This document shows, piece by piece, positions 7,853-17,731 of a stretch of DNA of 33,989 nt; within the stretch, counting starts at the first letter, position 1, and the number at the start of each line of letters is the position of its first letter. A program made the position numbers and the translations under genes. Below the pieces are notes generated by a model. The model was not told the origin of the DNA and ran no database searches. It saw only the letters and a list, made by a program, of their open reading frames with translations. The stretch is from Thermococcus sp. Its GTDB lineage: Archaea; Methanobacteriota_B; Thermococci; Thermococcales; Thermococcaceae. Where the stretch lies: assembly GCA_015520705.1 (NCBI GenBank), contig WAPO01000115.1, positions 1 to 33,989 of the forward strand. Reading direction: 5' to 3'.

Positions 7853-7943
7853 GGAAAGGATTTAACTGAGAAACTCAGAATAAGGGTGGGGGATAACGGT
7901 TCCAATATGAGTCTAGGAGAATTGAAATACTGGGGGTGTGAGC

Positions 7944-8954
7944 ATGAAGATAAGACTCGAGCATGGTGCCGGCGGAGAGCTGATGGAAGAGCTCATAAGG
8001 AATATCATCCTGAAGAACCTCACGCTGAAATCAGCGGGCGGAATAGGACTTGATGCTCTGGACGACGGAGCAACGATACCCTTCGGCGACAGACACGTTG
8101 TTTTTACCATAGACGGGCACACCGTAAGGCCCCTCTTCTTCCCTGGGGGAGACATAGGTCGCTTAGCTATAAGTGGAACCGTGAATGATCTGGCTGTTAT
8201 GGGGGCAGAGCCTCTGGCCCTTGCGAATTCCATGATAATAGAAGCTGGCTTTGATGATACCAGCCTTGAGAAAATCCTCAAATCCATGGATGAGACGTCG
8301 AAAGAGGTTCCGGTGCCGATAGTCACGGGCGATACGAAGGTTGTTGAGGACAGGATAGGAATCTTTGTAATCACCGCTGGAATAGGCGTGGCTGAACGGC
8401 CTGTGAGCGATGCAGGCGCAGAGGTCGGTGATGCCATAATCGTAAGCGGGAGCATAGGGGACCATGGGATGGCGATAATGAGCTACCGTGAGGGGATTGC
8501 CTTCGAGAGCGACCTGAAGAGCGACGTTGCCCCGATCTGGGAGGTTGTTAAGGTCACTGCCGAGGCCGTTGGATGGGAGAACATCCACGCAATGAAAGAC
8601 CCGACAAGGGCCGGGCTGAGCAACGCTTTAAACGAAATTGCAAGGAAATCCGGGGTTGGGATTCTCGTGAGGGAAGGCGAGATACCAGTGAAACCCGAGG
8701 TCAGGGCGGCGAGTGAAATGCTCGGCATAAGCCCCTATGACGTGGCAAACGAGGGGAAGGTCGTGATGGTGGTGGCCAGGGAGTATGCGGAAGAAGCCCT
8801 CAAAGCCATGAGGAGAACAGAAAGAGGGAAAGATGCAGCAATAATCGGAGAGGTCATCGGCGAATACAGAGGAAAAGTGATCCTTGAAACAGGAATCGGC
8901 GGCAAGAGGTTTATGGAGCCCCCTGAAGGCGACCCGGTTCCAAGAATATGCTGA
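7944..8954 (+). CDS. hypE: Hydrogenase maturation protein HypE
   Basis: LEHGAGGELMEELI...; C-terminal PRIC ending in the substrate Cys. Confidence 0.96.
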   Translation: MKIRLEHGAGGELMEELIRNIILKNLTLKSAGGIGLDALDDGATIPFGDRHVVFTIDGHTVRPLFFPGGDIGRLAISGTVNDLAVMGAEPLALANSMIIEAGFDDTSLEKILKSMDETSKEVPVPIVTGDTKVVEDRIGIFVITAGIGVAERPVSDAGAEVGDAIIVSGSIGDHGMAIMSYREGIAFESDLKSDVAPIWEVVKVTAEAVGWENIHAMKDPTRAGLSNALNEIARKSGVGILVREGEIPVKPEVRAASEMLGISPYDVANEGKVVMVVAREYAEEALKAMRRTERGKDAAIIGEVIGEYRGKVILETGIGGKRFMEPPEGDPVPRIC

Positions 8955-9114: not shown

Positions 9115-9531
9115 TCAGACGAGGTGCTTCCCTGTTGTCGTCATGACGAGCTTTCCGTGCTTGACGCCTTTGAGGCTTATGAGTCTGTCGGCTATTTCCT
9201 TAACCCGCTTGGCTTTCCCTTTAACCACCACAACCTCAAGGCAGTTGTGTTCGTCCATATGCACGTGGAGGCTTGAGACGATTTCACAGACATAGTCATG
9301 CTGGAGGTCGAGGAGCTCCTTGACAACATCGGCCTCATCATGGTTGTAGACTATTGTGATTGTTCCAGCCACCTCTTCATCCCCTTCCTCCCACTCATGC
9401 CTCACAATGAAATCCCTGATGAGGTCTCTAATCGCTTCACTCCTGTTTGTATAACCCTTCCTTTCAATGATTGCATCAAACTCAGTGAGCAAATCATGGG
9501 GAATCGAAACACCAAAGCGCACTATCTTCAT
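9115..9531 (-). CDS. nikR: Nickel-responsive regulator NikR
   Basis: [41 protein letters not shown] (RHH) and [20 protein letters not shown] (HxH...C nickel ligands). Confidence 0.93.
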
Positions 9532-9586
9532 GGTATCACCATTACAGTGTAAGAAGGAGAGCTTAAAATATTTATGAAAAAAGAAA

Positions 9587-10492
9587 TCACTCAGCATAAT
9601 TTATCAGGATGTCTTTAAGCTCACTCACTTTCTTATAGGTTATCGAACTGGGATTTGAAAGGATGGCTTCCACTTCAGGATCATACTCCTCCACGAGCTC
9701 ATCGTACGGAATTATGGTTTTTGTCGTAAAATCATTAAAGCCGAGCTCACTCAGGATGTTTTCAACTTTCTCCAAGTGCGGATCCCTTTTTACCTTGTTA
9801 ATCACCAGATGTATATATTTGATCCCAAGCCCTCTGGCCAGTTTTGCTGCATCAACTGCGACCTGAACTGAATTGTATGTGGGCTCTGTAAGTATTACAG
9901 CCTGTTTGAATCCTCTTGCCAAAGCTCTGCCAAAATGCTCCAGACCTGCCTGGGTATCCATTAAAATAACCTCACCTTTGCGGAGATTTATGTATTTCAC
10001 CACAGCATCCAGCAGAGCGTTTTCAGGACACAGACAACCAGCAGCTGCCTGGACAACACTGCCCATTACAAGCAGCATGACATTATCGGGCCCAATAACG
10101 CCGAATCTCTCAACAACGTCCCTCACATCAGGTGTGAGCGAGAAATACAGCCCCCAGTTTGTTCCGGGTCTTGCTCCTGTCTTTTCCTCTATATAATCAA
10201 GATTCCTGTTTAGAGGAACTATCTTTTCTCTGATCTCCTTTGGAACTCCGAGTGCATGGGCAAGATTCATCTGGGGATCTTCATCCACAGCCAGAACCCT
10301 GTATCCCTCCCTGGCCAAAAGCCTTGCCAGGATAGCAGTCAGGGTTGTCTTCCCTACTCCACCTTTGCCTGTTATAACAACTCTGAATCCTTCTTCTTTT
10401 CTTTGCATTTGTGAGCGTTTACTTAACTCATCGGCTAGGCGAAATATCCTCCTTCTCCTCTCTTCTATTTCCGGCTTCAGTTTCTTCGACAT
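9587..10492 (-). CDS. cooC: CO dehydrogenase nickel-insertion ATPase CooC
   Basis: P-loop [43 protein letters not shown]; CxC motif [11 protein letters not shown]. The exact start is uncertain (10492 or 10504). Confidence 0.9.
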
Positions 10493-10538
10493 ATGATCCA
10501 CCATCTCAGTTATAAATACACTCTTATATATTGTTTTA

Positions 10539-10825: not shown

Positions 10826-11434
10826 ATGACATCCCTAAATGCAAAGCCCACTATTTTCATTAATCCAGCAAAGTGCATTGGTTGCAAACACTGTGAGATA
10901 GCATGTGCCGTTGAGCACTCCCAAAGTAAAGACCTCTTCTCGGCAATCTTTGAAGAACCCCTGCCTCTGCCCAGAATCCACATCCTTCCTATGGGAGCCT
11001 ATAACGTCCCGATGAACTGCCGTCACTGCAATGATGCACCCTGTGTGGAGGTCTGTCCGACAGGGGCTCTCTACCATGATGACGATGGCGCTGTAATGAT
11101 AACCCCGGAGAAATGCATAGGATGCAAGATGTGTGCCATAGTCTGTCCCTTTGGTATACCTGAATTTGATGCCCTCAACGGCGTGATGTTCAAGTGTGAC
11201 ATGTGCCCGGATAGGAGGGCCGAGGGCAGACCGCCAGCATGTGTCGAGGCATGTAAGACTGGAGCACTCCAGTTTGGAACCATCGACGAAATTGTTGCAA
11301 ATGTCAGGAAGGAAACCGCCGAGAAGATAATCAAGCTGAAAGAAGGTGAATACGAAGAGGAATACAACGGATGGGACCTGTTTAGGTCCATGAATGCCGA
11401 GATTATTAGGATTAATGAGGGGGAGTCAAAATGA
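10826..11434 (+). CDS. cooF: CooF-type polyferredoxin (electron carrier for CODH)
   Basis: Four Cys-rich [4Fe-4S] motifs (CIGCKHCEIAC, CRHCNDAPCVEVCP, CIGCKMCAIVCP, CDMCPDRRAEGRPPACVEAC); stop overlaps the cooS start. Confidence 0.9.
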   Translation: MTSLNAKPTIFINPAKCIGCKHCEIACAVEHSQSKDLFSAIFEEPLPLPRIHILPMGAYNVPMNCRHCNDAPCVEVCPTGALYHDDDGAVMITPEKCIGCKMCAIVCPFGIPEFDALNGVMFKCDMCPDRRAEGRPPACVEACKTGALQFGTIDEIVANVRKETAEKIIKLKEGEYEEEYNGWDLFRSMNAEIIRINEGESK

Positions 11435-13401
11435 AGAAGTATAAGGAAGTTTCCATCGATAGTACTACCCAGCAGATGTATGAACGGGCTCAGGAGCTGG
11501 GTATAGAAACGGTATGGGAAAGGCTTGAGAAGCAGCAGCCCCAGTGTGGTTACGGTCTCCTCGGAGTCTGCTGTAGGAACTGTATGATGGGCCCGTGCAG
11601 GATAAACCCATTCGGCGGTGAGCCGAGAAGGGGAGTCTGCGGTGCTGATGCCGACACAATCGTTGCGAGGAACCTCCTCAGAATGATAGCCGCAGGTGCT
11701 GCTGCCCACAGCGACCACGGAAGGCATGTCGCCCTAACACTTCTCATAGCGGCCGAGATGGCCGAGAAGTTCAAGAAGGAGGGGAAGCCAGTTCTTGAAC
11801 TGGATAACATGGCTTCAAGCACACTCCCCTATAGGGTTAAGGATGTTGAAAAGCTCAAGGCTGTGGCAAAGAAGCTGGGCATAGAGATTGAGGGTAAAAC
11901 CATAAGAGAACTGGCCAAAGAGGTTGCCGAGATAGCTCTAAGGGATTTCGGGAAGCAGGATGAGGAGGCTTTGAGCTTCCTGAAGGCATATCTCAACCCC
12001 AAGACCTATGAGATATTTGAGAAGGCTCCAGAGAAGGCTGGAATGCCATGGTTCGAGAACGGTATCCTACCGAGGGGAATAGACAGAGAAATCGTTGAGA
12101 GCTTACACAGGACACACATGGGGACAGACCACGACCCGGTGAGCATACTCCTGCATGGACTCAAAACTTCGCTCGGCGATGCATGGGGAGGATCGCTCAT
12201 AGCGACTGAACTCCAGGACATACTCTTCGGCACGCCGCAGGTCATAAAGGCAGAGGCTAACCTTGGTGTCCTCAAGGAGGACTACGTCAACATAGTTGTC
12301 CACGGCCACGAGCCTGTTCTTTCTGAGAAGATAGTCGAGGCAGCCCAAGACCCAGAGCTTATAGAGCTCGCCCAGAAGCTCGGTGCTAAGGGTATCAATG
12401 TCGTTGGAATGTGCTGTACAGGCCTTGAGGTTCTCATGAGGCACGGCATCCCCATAGCAGGAAACTTCCTCCAGCAGGAAATGGCCATCGTAACCGGCGC
12501 AGTCGAGGCAATGGTGGTTGACGTCCAGTGTATAATGCCCGCCACCGTTGATGTTGCCAGATGCTTCCACACCAAGATAATTGACACCAGCCCGATAGCC
12601 ACCTTCCCAGGAGCAATACACATAAAGTTTGACGAGCGCAGAGCTGATGAAATAGCTAAGGAGATTGTAAAGACCGCCGTCGAAAACTTCCCGAACAGGT
12701 CAAAGAAGAGGGTTGAGATTCCAAAGGAGAAGATGTCCGGCTACGTGGGCTTCAGTGTCGAGGCCATACTCAAGCACTTCGGAGGGAGCCTCAAACCTAT
12801 AGAGGAAGCCATCGTAGAGGGTAAGATTAAGGGTGTCGCCGGCCTCGTCGGCTGTAACAACCCCAAGATAAAGCAGGATCACAACCACATTAAGATAGCA
12901 AATGAGCTGATGAAGAGGGATGTTCTGCTAATTGGAACAGGATGCTGGGCTACCGCTGCCATGAAACATGGCATCTTCCTGCCTGAATATGCTGACACAG
13001 ACAACGTCGGCCCCGGCCTGAGAGAGTTCGCTAAGGAATGGGGAATACCACCGGCCATCAATATGGGTTCGTGTGTTGACTGCACGAGGATGCTTGTTCT
13101 GGCAGATTTGATAGCTAGGGACATTGGCGTTCCCATCTCAGCGTTGCCTGTTGTGGGTTCTGCCCCAGAGGCAATGACCGAGAAAGCAGTTTCAATCGGA
13201 ACCTACTTCGTCGCGAGTGGAATCACGACCCATCTCGGCATAGTGCCACCGGTTCTTGGAAGCCCAGCGGTAGTCAAGATCCTCACCCATGATCTCTATG
13301 ACATTGTTGGAGCGGCCTTTATAGTCGAACCAGATCCATACAAGGCAGCGAAGCTGATGTACGAGCACATAATGAAGAAGAGAAAGGAGCTCGGCATCTG
13401 A
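11431..13401 (+). CDS. cooS: Ni-containing anaerobic carbon-monoxide dehydrogenase catalytic subunit CooS
   Basis: CGYGLLGVCCRNCMMGPCRI (B/D clusters), VGMCCTGLEVLMRHG, GLVGCNNPK, LIGTGCWATAAMKHG, NMGSCVDCTR (C-cluster ligand regions). Confidence 0.97.
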   Translation: MKKYKEVSIDSTTQQMYERAQELGIETVWERLEKQQPQCGYGLLGVCCRNCMMGPCRINPFGGEPRRGVCGADADTIVARNLLRMIAAGAAAHSDHGRHVALTLLIAAEMAEKFKKEGKPVLELDNMASSTLPYRVKDVEKLKAVAKKLGIEIEGKTIRELAKEVAEIALRDFGKQDEEALSFLKAYLNPKTYEIFEKAPEKAGMPWFENGILPRGIDREIVESLHRTHMGTDHDPVSILLHGLKTSLGDAWGGSLIATELQDILFGTPQVIKAEANLGVLKEDYVNIVVHGHEPVLSEKIVEAAQDPELIELAQKLGAKGINVVGMCCTGLEVLMRHGIPIAGNFLQQEMAIVTGAVEAMVVDVQCIMPATVDVARCFHTKIIDTSPIATFPGAIHIKFDERRADEIAKEIVKTAVENFPNRSKKRVEIPKEKMSGYVGFSVEAILKHFGGSLKPIEEAIVEGKIKGVAGLVGCNNPKIKQDHNHIKIANELMKRDVLLIGTGCWATAAMKHGIFLPEYADTDNVGPGLREFAKEWGIPPAINMGSCVDCTRMLVLADLIARDIGVPISALPVVGSAPEAMTEKAVSIGTYFVASGITTHLGIVPPVLGSPAVVKILTHDLYDIVGAAFIVEPDPYKAAKLMYEHIMKKRKELGI

Positions 13402-13432: not shown

Positions 13433-13924
13433 ATGCTTGAACGCCTCAAGAGACTTCTGGGAAAGAAAAAGAACATTCCAGTTCAGGATATCGGGAGGGA
13501 AATAAAAGCACCTGAAGCTCCTGAAAAGAAGGAAGGCTTAAACGTAGATGCCTGCATAGGGTGCGGGCTATGTGCACAGCTCTGCCCTCACAACGCGATT
13601 TTTGTGATAGATGATGATAAGAAGGTCATCTCCTTCCACCCCGAGCTCTGCAAGGAGTGCAACTTTGAGTGCAACAGTATATGCCCGACCAAGGCCATTG
13701 AGGGTCATCCAGATAGAGTCGACCTTGAATTTGAATATGCCCACTGTCAGGTCTGCGGGAAGAAGCTTGATTATACTGTTAAAACCGCAGAATTCCTCTA
13801 CCACAAGCTCGAAAAGTTCTATGACCATCCCGAGATAGTTTTCATGTGTGATAAGTGCAAACATGATCGTGTTAAGGAGTTTCCAAGCGAATATCTCAGA
13901 TTCTTTGGGGGAATGCTGAAATGA
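13433..13924 (+). CDS. 4Fe-4S ferredoxin-domain protein with an additional C-terminal CxxC pair
   Basis: DACIGCGLCAQLCPHNAIFV, CKECNFECNSICPTKAIE; C-terminal CQVCGKK...CDKCKH. Confidence 0.88.
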   Translation: MLERLKRLLGKKKNIPVQDIGREIKAPEAPEKKEGLNVDACIGCGLCAQLCPHNAIFVIDDDKKVISFHPELCKECNFECNSICPTKAIEGHPDRVDLEFEYAHCQVCGKKLDYTVKTAEFLYHKLEKFYDHPEIVFMCDKCKHDRVKEFPSEYLRFFGGMLK

Positions 13925-14973
13925 GGGGCATAAAATTTTCCTTTCTCTGCAGGAGCAAACCCGAGCCAACAGGAAAGAGGGTTGCCATTGTTGGCGCCGG
14001 TCCTGCAGGATTGACGGCAGCAGGTTACCTCGTTTGCAAGGGACACGCTGTCGACATATACGACAAGATGCCCGAACCCGGTGGATTAATGCTCTTTGTA
14101 ATCCCAGAATTTAGGATACCCATAGAGAGAGTCAGACTCGGTGCGAAGGAACTTGAAGAAGAGTTTGAGGTAACCTACTATCCCAGAACCAAGGTAATGG
14201 AGGGAAGCAGAGAGGATGAGGGAGATGAGTTCTACGAGAGGACTGTAAGGCTCAGCGAACTCAGGGAGAAGTATGATGCTGTGCTGATATCAACGGGAAT
14301 ATGGAACGTGAGAAGGATAGGCATTCCCGGGGACGACCTTGATGGGATATTCTCACCTCTTGAGCTTCTATTCTGGATAAAGGGTCACAAGATGGGTTAT
14401 GTTCCAAAGGAAAAGGTTCCGGAGCTTGAGAACAAGAAAGTGGGGATAATAGGGGCCGGTTTGACTGCTGTTGATGTGGCTTTTGAGTGCAACAGACTTG
14501 GAGCAGAAGTTGAAATATTCTACCGCAGAACGATAAGGGAGGCTCCTGCTGGGGCTTATGAGATAAACCTCCTCAGGCGGAGAGGGGTGAAGTGGTTTGA
14601 GCTTGTGACACCGAAGAGAGTCATCGGTGAAAATGGTCGTGTCAAGGCAATAGAACTCCTCAGAACCCGTTTAGGTGAGCCTGACGAGAGCGGGAGAAGG
14701 AGGCCAATACCTATACCAGGTTCAGAGTTTCAGGTGGAACTCGATTATCTGGTCTTTGCCATCGGGATGGTTTCAACCCCACCGGTTAATGGAGGATATT
14801 TAGCAACAGACAGGAGGGGAAGATTAATCGTTGATGGAAGGCACATGACAAACGTCGAAGGAATTTTCGCAGCCGGTGATGTTGTCAACGGACCCACCAA
14901 AGTAGGGAGAGCTATAAAGGATGGCCTTTACACAGCTGTTTCAATTGACCGCTGGCTCAGGGGGGAGCTGTGA
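13921..14973 (+). CDS. FAD-dependent NAD(P)H oxidoreductase, GltD/FNOR-like
   Basis: Two dinucleotide-binding motifs (VAIVGAGPAGLTAAGYLVCKGHAVDIYDKMPEPGG; VGIIGAGLTAVDVAFECNRLGAEVEIFYRR) and GIFAAGDVVNGPTKVGRAIKDG. Confidence 0.9.
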   Translation: MRGIKFSFLCRSKPEPTGKRVAIVGAGPAGLTAAGYLVCKGHAVDIYDKMPEPGGLMLFVIPEFRIPIERVRLGAKELEEEFEVTYYPRTKVMEGSREDEGDEFYERTVRLSELREKYDAVLISTGIWNVRRIGIPGDDLDGIFSPLELLFWIKGHKMGYVPKEKVPELENKKVGIIGAGLTAVDVAFECNRLGAEVEIFYRRTIREAPAGAYEINLLRRRGVKWFELVTPKRVIGENGRVKAIELLRTRLGEPDESGRRRPIPIPGSEFQVELDYLVFAIGMVSTPPVNGGYLATDRRGRLIVDGRHMTNVEGIFAAGDVVNGPTKVGRAIKDGLYTAVSIDRWLRGEL

Positions 14974-15497
14974 TGGAGAGGGAATACCTCTATTTAGACT
15001 ATCTCACCTGCATAGGATGTGAAACCTGCGAGACTGTTTGTGGCTTCATCCATGATGGCAACCCTTACATAAGGATTTACGTGACAGAGAACAAGCAGTA
15101 TCTTCCCATAAACTGCAAGCACTGTGACGATGCTCCATGCCTACGTGTCTGCCCGACACATGCCATATATCGGGATGAGGAAGGTGCAGTTAGAATAGCG
15201 GAGAACAAGTGTATAGGCTGCCTAGTCTGCCTGCAGGTCTGCCCCTACGGGGTGCCCTTCTACAGTCTGAAGGTCAGGGCGATAACCAAATGCGACATGT
15301 GTGCCGAGAGAAGGGAGGAGGGTCTTGAACCCGCATGTTCCCTGATGTGCCCTGCCGAAGCTATACAATATGGCCCGCTGGAGATTGTTCTCGAACTCGT
15401 TAGAGAAAGACGCGCCAAGAACATACCTGAACATCAGAAGGAAGTGACAGAGGAGGAGCTCGCTAAGAGCGTTAGTTCAGGCTATATCTTTCTGTAG
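14973..15497 (+). CDS. Second CooF-like 4Fe-4S polyferredoxin
   Basis: MEREYLYLDYLTCIGCETCETVCGF..., CKHCDDAPCLRVCP, CIGCLVCLQVCP, CDMCAERREEGLEPACSLMCP. Confidence 0.9.
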   Translation: MEREYLYLDYLTCIGCETCETVCGFIHDGNPYIRIYVTENKQYLPINCKHCDDAPCLRVCPTHAIYRDEEGAVRIAENKCIGCLVCLQVCPYGVPFYSLKVRAITKCDMCAERREEGLEPACSLMCPAEAIQYGPLEIVLELVRERRAKNIPEHQKEVTEEELAKSVSSGYIFL

Positions 15498-15524: not shown

Positions 15525-16010
15525 ATGGAACTCAATGAAATAATCGGAAATGCCAAGAGGATAGTTATCTGTGGTCTCGGAAATGAAAAATATGGGGACG
15601 AAGCTTTTGGGGTTATTGTTGCCAAGCTTTTAAAGCCCCTGATTCTCAATCCGGATGTCACTGTTATAGAATGCCATGAGATTCCCGAGAAACATGCAGG
15701 ACCCATAATCAGGTTTAAACCGGATTTACTCCTTCTGATTTCTCCCATTAACTATGGAGGGAAAGCCGGAAAGCTTGTGGTGGCTGATCCATGGGAAGCT
15801 CTCGAAGATCTACCTGAGACTCTCCAGCCACAGCTTAGAGTTACCCTTAATCATCTTAGAGAGCTGTTACCCGATACCAGATTTATGCTCCTCGGCTGTC
15901 AGATTAAAGACAAGAGAACATTCCGCAGATTAAGTCCTGAGGTAAAAGATAGTGCCAAAGCTCTTGTTCTTTCCCTCAAAAAGGAGCTTGAAAAAATTCA
16001 AACTTCTTAA
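15525..16010 (+). CDS. HycI-like hydrogenase maturation protease paralog, probably degenerate active site
   Basis: AKRIVICGLGNEKYGDEAFGVIVAK aligns with the intact paralog at 17258..17731, but the Asp and His ligand positions are Ser and Leu. Start could also be 15516 or 15510. Confidence 0.8.
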   Translation: MELNEIIGNAKRIVICGLGNEKYGDEAFGVIVAKLLKPLILNPDVTVIECHEIPEKHAGPIIRFKPDLLLLISPINYGGKAGKLVVADPWEALEDLPETLQPQLRVTLNHLRELLPDTRFMLLGCQIKDKRTFRRLSPEVKDSAKALVLSLKKELEKIQTS

Positions 16011-16073: not shown

Positions 16074-16487
16074 ATGCACGAATGGGCCTTAGCTGATGGT
16101 ATTGTTAGAACAGCCATAGAATTTGCAAGGACGCACGGTAAGGATAAAATCCTCGGCATAAGGGTGGTTCTTGGGGAGCTTCAGGACGTCAATGAAGAGA
16201 TACTGAAGTTTGCGATAGACGAGATAAAGAAGGGCACTATTGCCGAAGATGCGGAGGTTGAGTTCGTCCTTGAGGAGGCCGAATTCAGATGCAGGAACTG
16301 CGGCCATGAATGGAAGCTCAGGGAGGTCAGGGAAAGCTTCAACGAGCGCATAAAGGAGGATATACACTTCATTCCTGAGGTGGTGCATGCCTTCTTGGCC
16401 TGTCCGAAGTGCGGGAGCAGGGACTTTGAGGTCGTTAAAGGTAGAGGGGTTTATCTCTCGGCCATAAAAGTCGAAGGGGAGGAGTGA
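16074..16487 (+). CDS. hypA: Hydrogenase nickel-incorporation protein HypA
   Basis: MHEWALADGIVRTAIEFAR; zinc motif CRNCGHEW...CPKCGS. Confidence 0.95.
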   Translation: MHEWALADGIVRTAIEFARTHGKDKILGIRVVLGELQDVNEEILKFAIDEIKKGTIAEDAEVEFVLEEAEFRCRNCGHEWKLREVRESFNERIKEDIHFIPEVVHAFLACPKCGSRDFEVVKGRGVYLSAIKVEGEE

Positions 16488-16490
16488 GCG

Positions 16491-17225
16491 ATGATAGGCG
16501 CTGTCGACCCCAGAATCAAGGCTATCGAAGCCCGTCTGGAGAAGGTCGGGAAAATAATCCCTGTCGTGAGCGGCAAGGGCGGCGTCGGGAAGTCGCTGGT
16601 CTCAACGACTCTGGCGCTGGCGCTGGCTGAGAAAGGCTACAGGGTGGGCCTCCTTGACCTCGACTTCCATGGAGCGAGCGACCACGTGATTTTAGGCTTC
16701 GAGCCGAAGGAGTTCCCCGAGGAAGATAAGGGCGTCGTTCCTCCGGAGATACACGGAATCAAGTTCATGAGCATCGTATATTACTCCGAGGACAGGCCAA
16801 CCCCGATGAGGGGGATGGAGATCAGCGACGCACTCATAGAACTCCTCGCCATAACGCGCTGGGACGAGCTTGATTATCTGGTCATAGACATGCCCCCAGG
16901 GATGGGCGATCAGCTCCTCGACATTCTCAGATTCCTGAGGAGGGGAGAGTTTCTGGTAGTTGCAACACCCTCAAAGCTGGCAGTTAATGTCGTCAGGAAA
17001 CTCATCATCCTTCTGAAAGAGCAGAACCTCAGGATTCTTGGGGTGGTTGAAAACCTCAGGCTCGATGATGAGGAGGACATCAGGAAGCTGTCGGAGGAGT
17101 TCGGCATTCCCTATCTGGCGGGGATTCCTCTCTACAGAGACCTCGAAGAGAAAGTCGGCAGTCCGGACGAGCTCCTGAGAACCGGCTTCGCGGAGAAGAT
17201 AAGGGAAGTCGCCGGGAGGATTTAA
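16491..17225 (+). CDS. hypB: Mrp/MinD-type P-loop ATPase, the archaeal Thermococcales-type HypB
   Basis: VVSGKGGVGKSLVSTTLALALAEKGYRVGLLDLDFHGASDHVILG; directly after hypA. Confidence 0.85.
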   Translation: MIGAVDPRIKAIEARLEKVGKIIPVVSGKGGVGKSLVSTTLALALAEKGYRVGLLDLDFHGASDHVILGFEPKEFPEEDKGVVPPEIHGIKFMSIVYYSEDRPTPMRGMEISDALIELLAITRWDELDYLVIDMPPGMGDQLLDILRFLRRGEFLVVATPSKLAVNVVRKLIILLKEQNLRILGVVENLRLDDEEDIRKLSEEFGIPYLAGIPLYRDLEEKVGSPDELLRTGFAEKIREVAGRI

Positions 17226-17257: not shown

Positions 17258-17731
17258 ATGAACATCACCGAACTCCTGAAAAACGCCAAGCGCATCGTCA
17301 TCTGCGGCATAGGCAATGAGAACAGAGGAGATGATGCCTTCGGTGTCGTGGTTGCGGAGAGATTAAAAAAGATTCTCCAGAAGCCCGGTATCATCGTGAT
17401 AAACTGCGGGGAAGTTCCGGAGAGCTACACAGGTGTCATAAAGCGCCACAGGCCGGATGTGGTTGTTTTCATAGATGCCATAGAATTTGGAGGAAAGCCC
17501 GGAGAGATTGTAACAGCAGACCCCGAGGGGACGCTGGGGAGTGCCGCCTCAACCCACAGCCTGCCTCTGAGGGTTCTGGTTCAGTATCTGAAGACAGAGC
17601 TGAAGGACACAGAATTTATCCTAATCGGCTGCCAGCCAAAGAGCACGGCCCTTTTCGGCGAGATGAGCGGGGAAATTAAAAAAAGCGCCGAAGAGCTCGT
17701 GAAAATGCTGGTCGATTCGCTGGAGGGCTAA
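17258..17731 (+). CDS. HycI-like [NiFe]-hydrogenase maturation protease
   Basis: IVICGIGNENRGDDAFGVVVAERL, FIDAIEFGGKPGEIV, ASTHSLPLRVLVQYL: conserved acid, Asp and His metal ligands present. Confidence 0.9.
   Translation: MNITELLKNAKRIVICGIGNENRGDDAFGVVVAERLKKILQKPGIIVINCGEVPESYTGVIKRHRPDVVVFIDAIEFGGKPGEIVTADPEGTLGSAASTHSLPLRVLVQYLKTELKDTEFILIGCQPKSTALFGEMSGEIKKSAEELVKMLVDSLEG

Follow-up and report, generated by a model that had tools for sequence, protein, structure and literature searches.

Maturation of nickel-containing carbon monoxide dehydrogenases (Ni-CODHs) is incompletely understood, and the known helpers differ between organisms. The CODH accessory proteins CooC, CooT and CooJ, encoded together with the catalytic subunit gene cooS, have a described role in nickel insertion. 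For [NiFe]-hydrogenases, maturation proteases are known, such as HycI and the hydrogenase-2 maturation protease HybD, the latter with an active metal site. Coordination of nickel by two conserved aspartates and one histidine has been proposed for this protease family (review, PMC12134894). Protease families may also conserve a branch that has lost catalysis but serves other functions, as exemplified by the iRhoms (PMC6451368).

Here we describe a comparable case from an archaeal CODH operon. The gene, hereafter hycI2 (15525..16010, plus strand), lies in a 33,989-nucleotide stretch of Thermococcus sp. DNA (the window) and encodes a 161-aa protein of the HycI type, in which the three ligand positions read Glu26, Ser73 and Leu100. 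Several lines of evidence strongly support the view that hycI2 is a conserved pseudoprotease, resembling in this respect the iRhoms, which, unlike hycI2, are eukaryotic membrane proteins of another fold. If hycI2 aids CODH assembly, it would be functionally comparable to CooC, CooT and CooJ; these, however, insert nickel, whereas hycI2 has lost metal ligands. The folds of CooC, CooT and CooJ are also unrelated to that of hycI2.

A HycI homologue at the end of a CODH operon

The operon comprises six genes in the order cooF-cooS-fdx-FNOR-fdx2-hycI2, all on the plus strand: a cooF-like gene for a 4Fe-4S protein (10826..11434), cooS for the anaerobic Ni-CODH catalytic subunit (11431..13401; TIGR01702, 695 bits), fdx for a 4Fe-4S dicluster protein (13433..13924), FNOR for a GltD/NfnB-like FAD/NAD(P) oxidoreductase (13921..14973; PRK12770, 494 bits), fdx2 for a second cooF/DmsB-like multi-4Fe-4S protein (14970..15497) and, finally, hycI2. 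The preliminary description, which had hycI2 sitting behind cooS at the end of the operon, was thus right as to the terminal position, but fdx, the oxidoreductase gene and fdx2 intervene. A 27-nt gap separates hycI2 from the preceding gene, and its ATG start codon is preceded by a GAGGA Shine-Dalgarno-like motif ending 9 nt upstream. The GltD/NfnB-like oxidoreductase, flanked by two further Fe-S proteins, appears to differ in type from the COG1251 FNOR named for bacterial CODH clusters (PMC6344411).

A cooC-like gene for a nickel-insertion ATPase (9587..10498, minus strand) is divergent from the operon, and its position is conserved. This arrangement matches that of CODH-I, for which the relevant passages of a 2026 survey of CODH gene contexts (PMC13056359) describe a cooC that is encoded on the other strand and is not part of the operon. 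Beside cooC lies a gene for the nickel-responsive regulator NikR (9118-9534, minus strand; PRK04460, 231 bits), with hypE further upstream (7938-8954, plus strand, noted together with the NikR gene), which makes the window an island of nickel-enzyme genes centred on the CODH operon. Downstream of hycI2, hypA and a gene for a HypB-like/Mrp-type ATPase (16074..17225, plus strand) are followed by the canonical hydrogenase maturation protease gene hycI (17258..17731, plus strand). The gene in the hypB position (16491-17225) encodes an Mrp/NUBPL-type P-loop ATPase according to Pfam PF10609. Thermococcales are reported to lack the bacterial HypB GTPase, and an Mrp-type ATPase in this position is to be expected for them.

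Homology of hycI2 to HycI is far above chance. The alignment with the product of the canonical paralogue, proposed in the preliminary description to run along the entire protein, was borne out by 46% identity over 156 residues (E 7e-41), and the HycI of T. kodakarensis (5zby) was matched with an E value of 3.5e-31. The family model TIGR00072 recognised the window copy at 64.3 bits (cut-off 47.45) and matched all 15 intact hycI2 members, although the copy in genome G031 fell under the cut-off with 43.2 bits. Pfam HycI (PF01750) did not match the window hycI2 and matched, weakly, one of the 15 copies. The label 'hydrogenase maturation protease' that the NCBI family model attaches to the window hycI2 is misleading. 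The same genome carries a further hydrogenase maturation protease gene (G000:C2:11568-11918, L097), which scores 82.5 bits with Pfam HycI, better than the canonical hycI of the window.

Structure prediction likewise gave a confident HycI fold. For the window copy and one fully degenerate hycI2, AlphaFold models reached pLDDT values of 92.8 and 93.8, and in both cases 5zby was the top structural match (TM 0.84-0.88). The predicted fold is the same as that of the HycI proteins of T. kodakarensis and E. coli (2e85/2i8l), with which hycI2 also shares structural glycines, the PE motif and GxQ. HybD (1cfz, 5ija) belongs to the same fold superfamily (TM 0.68-0.73) at ∼20% identity. What sets hycI2 apart from HycI is the loss of the ligands, a rebuilt loop and linkage to a CODH operon.

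Metal ligands and the former active site

Ligand positions are numbered here after the intact paralogue, in which they are Asp26, Asp73 and His100. Where the paralogue has FIDAIEFGG the window hycI2 has LISPINYGG, and where the former has STHSLPLRV the latter has ETLQPQLRV; the substitutions noticed originally, Ser for Asp73 and Leu for His100, are therefore exact. The losses extend to the other CODH clusters: Asp73 is absent from all 15 intact hycI2 copies, being replaced by Val, Ser, Thr or Ile, and so is His100, for which Phe or Leu is found. Retention of Asp and His by orthologues, which the preliminary description had named as pointing to local decay only, was thus seen in none of the 15. 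Its statement that the third acid is kept (GDE) holds for the window copy, with Glu at position 26, but not for the remaining 14 intact orthologues, 13 of which have Tyr and one Leu. The window hycI2 is accordingly the least degenerate of the intact copies. The hycI2 of G063, the sister genome of that of the window, also reads GDE, but it is frameshifted near codon 27. On the simplest reading of these sequences, the loss of Asp73 and His100 would have preceded that of the third acid. All three ligands are kept in each of the 38 canonical HycI proteins compared.

An active enzyme would be expected to have the metal ligands Asp/Glu26, Asp73 and His100, a set that hycI2 does not possess, and we infer that its product does not act by proteolysis. 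A rebuilt active site, serving for example a protease or amidase that acts on an operon protein, is the least probable of the explanations considered here. The fold is intact and both Cys50 and the cysteine of the GCQ motif are widely conserved, as such an enzyme would require; Cys50 is, however, equally conserved in canonical HycI, no invariant new catalytic set of Asp, His or Cys is present in hycI2, and the end of CooS is the same as in G044, a genome without hycI2. A cleavable CooS tail was rejected on the last of these grounds, since no C-terminal extension relative to the G044 CooS was found. A new metal or Fe-S site was rejected as well: across the 15 copies there is no CxxC motif and no invariant new set of His and Asp residues, a His at position 51 being Arg in five of them.

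Among the positions that canonical HycI strongly conserves but hycI2 has lost are 26, 73, 74, 83, 90, 92, 98, 99, 100 and 103, namely the ligands and their neighbours in the sequence. At 24 positions a residue differing from the canonical consensus has become fixed in hycI2 (in at least 14 of the 15 copies, the window included), and many of these replace the active-site loop. They include Trp90, Ala92, Asp95, Pro97, Gln103, Val106-Thr107-Leu108 and Leu115-Pro116, and the segment standing in place of the catalytic loop reads DPWEA..D.PE....QL.VTL.H..ELLP.TR. The intact fold, together with an old active site that has been remodelled and put under new constraints, suggests that the binding function has altered.

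Another idea is that hycI2 is a decoy, which would bind, but not cleave, either canonical HycI or the large subunits of immature hydrogenases and would thereby slow hydrogenase maturation during CO oxidation. Its HycI ancestry and the retained PE and GxQ motifs would suit this role, as would the presence of canonical hycI in every genome with hycI2 except the incomplete G051. A substrate decoy would, however, be expected to keep the cleft residues, whereas those at positions 74, 83, 90, 92, 98, 99 and 103 are replaced along with the ligands, and the genetic link of hycI2 is with the CODH operon rather than with operons for hydrogenases. We consider a decoy unlikely; along with a permanent subunit (see below), it is one of the two chief alternatives to an assembly role.

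Distribution, origin and selection

Among 94 Thermococcales genomes, the cooS type of the window was found in 16 genomes in addition to the window's own (92-96% identical). In all 17, which belong to Thermococcus, hycI2 is the last gene of an operon of the same order, directly downstream of fdx2, and its genetic linkage to this cooS type is therefore constant. The hypA-hypB-hycI genes follow in just six of the 17, so that it is the CODH operon that is the constant neighbour of hycI2. No hycI2 was found away from this operon in the 94 genomes or in a search of the phylum, in which hycI2-type scores were confined to the same 17 genomes. When GTDB r220 was scanned with a hycI2 profile, in a search that reaches close relatives only, just five loci were retrieved, all from Thermococcus metagenome-assembled genomes. 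In the passages searched of the survey mentioned above, the CODH operons of Thermococcus sp. AM4 are described as specific to a small number of species of Thermococcus or Pyrococcus, and the hycI2 gene is not discussed (PMC13056359).

The operon of G054 is divided between two contigs, and both cooS and cooF look frameshifted in this draft (L068, 421-2981). In G044, where cooS is just 70% identical, fdx, FNOR, fdx2 and hycI2 are absent. The cooC-cooF-cooS set of this genome (L069, 3078-6619) faces a pyruvate-oxidoreductase-type operon, and the same operon flanks the full CODH operon in G031, G030 and G032; the G044 set may thus be a shorter or replaced form in what appears to be the corresponding location. 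No hycI2 is present near cooS in G021 and G026, which have a CODH type ∼60% identical. G033 carries both CODH types. In bacterial CODH-FNOR clusters, too, no such gene is listed in the figure legend that describes them (PMC4703632). Taken together, the bacterial clusters and the three archaeal genomes indicate that CODH as such does not need hycI2.

In phylogenetic trees all hycI2 sequences fall into one clade (support 100/99), within which the window copy is split from the other 14 (100/99). hycI2 therefore appears to have had a single origin within Thermococcales, its ancestor being a [NiFe]-hydrogenase maturation protease of the HycI type. In the best tree it stands beside the hycI of the G000/G063/G052 lineage, with support of 95/77 (92/79 without outgroups), but alternative placements are not rejected (AU p ∼0.45).

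The median pairwise dN/dS of the hycI2 copies other than that of the window was 0.115. Comparisons of the window copy with the others gave a median of 0.124, with dS close to saturation; values for the 15 pairs of lowest dS ranged from 0.07 to 0.27, and that for the window and G063 copies was 0.17. Since canonical hycI has a median of 0.129 (range 0.046-0.265), hycI2 is not decaying and, by this measure, appears to be held as tightly as the active protease.

It is nevertheless the fastest-evolving gene of the operon (dN/dS of 0.03-0.08 for cooS, FNOR and the ferredoxins among the genomes other than that of the window), and two of the 17 copies, both in draft genomes, are interrupted: that of G063 by its frameshift (L066, ∼2640-2730) and that of G062 by a TGA at codon 16, where relatives have Trp (L061, ∼8172). 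The interruptions may reflect assembly errors, or the gene may be dispensable in places. Together with the lost catalytic residues, these features are what a redundant, decaying copy carried along by the operon would display, an explanation that is nonetheless strongly disfavoured and very improbable. A decaying pseudogene would be expected to have a dN/dS near 1 and frequent disruptions, whereas hycI2 matches its active paralogue in dN/dS, is intact in 15 of 17 genomes and has newly fixed residues family-wide. Purely local decay was rejected because the ligands are lost in all intact orthologues while dN/dS remains low.

A possible role in CODH assembly

The preliminary description saw in hycI2 a repurposed scaffold, such as a nickel-site or assembly chaperone. 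Ligand loss, the position as last gene of the CODH operon and purifying selection agree with a non-proteolytic scaffold tied to this operon, but the nickel-site part finds no support: as most orthologues lack all three metal ligands, it is unlikely that the ancestral site still senses nickel. Very probably hycI2 has taken on a different task that involves no cleavage, perhaps in the construction of the enzyme that oxidises CO. An assembly or adaptor role is favoured by the constant linkage to the CODH operon and by the lack of an extra tail on CooS, and we give about even chances to hycI2 acting, without proteolysis, in the assembly of CooS and its Fe-S and oxidoreductase partners or as an adaptor for them. 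That a hydrogenase maturation protease was converted into a dedicated non-proteolytic Ni-CODH assembly factor is a more tentative proposal, to which we attach somewhat less than even odds. In such a course of events, a HycI-type ancestor would have lost its Asp/His metal site and become the fixed final gene of one CODH operon, keeping the fold while the former catalytic loop was swapped for a new conserved segment. The protein would then bind, but not cleave, one of the proteins encoded in the same operon, putting to new use the capacity of its parent for docking onto a nickel enzyme that is still immature.

Counting against a role in CODH assembly are the lack of such a gene in the described bacterial clusters and beside cooS in G044, G021 and G026, the interrupted copies in G062 and G063, the faster evolution relative to the other operon genes and the fact that no partner is singled out: evolutionary distances of hycI2 correlate significantly with those of every operon gene, and with those of canonical hycI as well, so that this analysis names no single partner. 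Part of the evidence could also be accommodated if hycI2 were a permanent structural or regulatory subunit of the CODH-ferredoxin-NAD(P) oxidoreductase complex, bridging, for example, CooS and fdx2/FNOR. The gene always directly follows fdx2 and occurs in precisely those genomes that have fdx, FNOR and fdx2, G044 lacking all four, and the residues newly fixed at the old active site would fit a binding surface. A dN/dS about twice that of the enzyme subunits or more would, however, be unusual for a core subunit, and the parent proteins are transient maturation factors; we regard a permanent subunit as rather improbable. We hypothesize instead that the client of hycI2 is the CODH complex and that its role is one of assembly.

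An inactive member of the hydrogenase maturation protease family, or this gene itself, was not found to be described in the open-licence literature, in agreement with the initial impression that no role had been reported; an earlier mention elsewhere is possible. Judging from the sequences, hycI2 is a new, conserved dead variant of a known protease family, tied to one archaeal CODH operon. CooS and CooC have been detected in T. gammatolerans cells from rich medium with sulfur (PMC2718504). The presence of a conserved dead protease in one archaeal CODH operon points to a component that has so far gone unrecognised and that occurs in species amenable to culture. If the proposed role is true, hycI2 would represent a new class of CODH accessory proteins alongside CooC, CooT and CooJ, and would be an example of a maturation factor that has changed the enzyme it serves.
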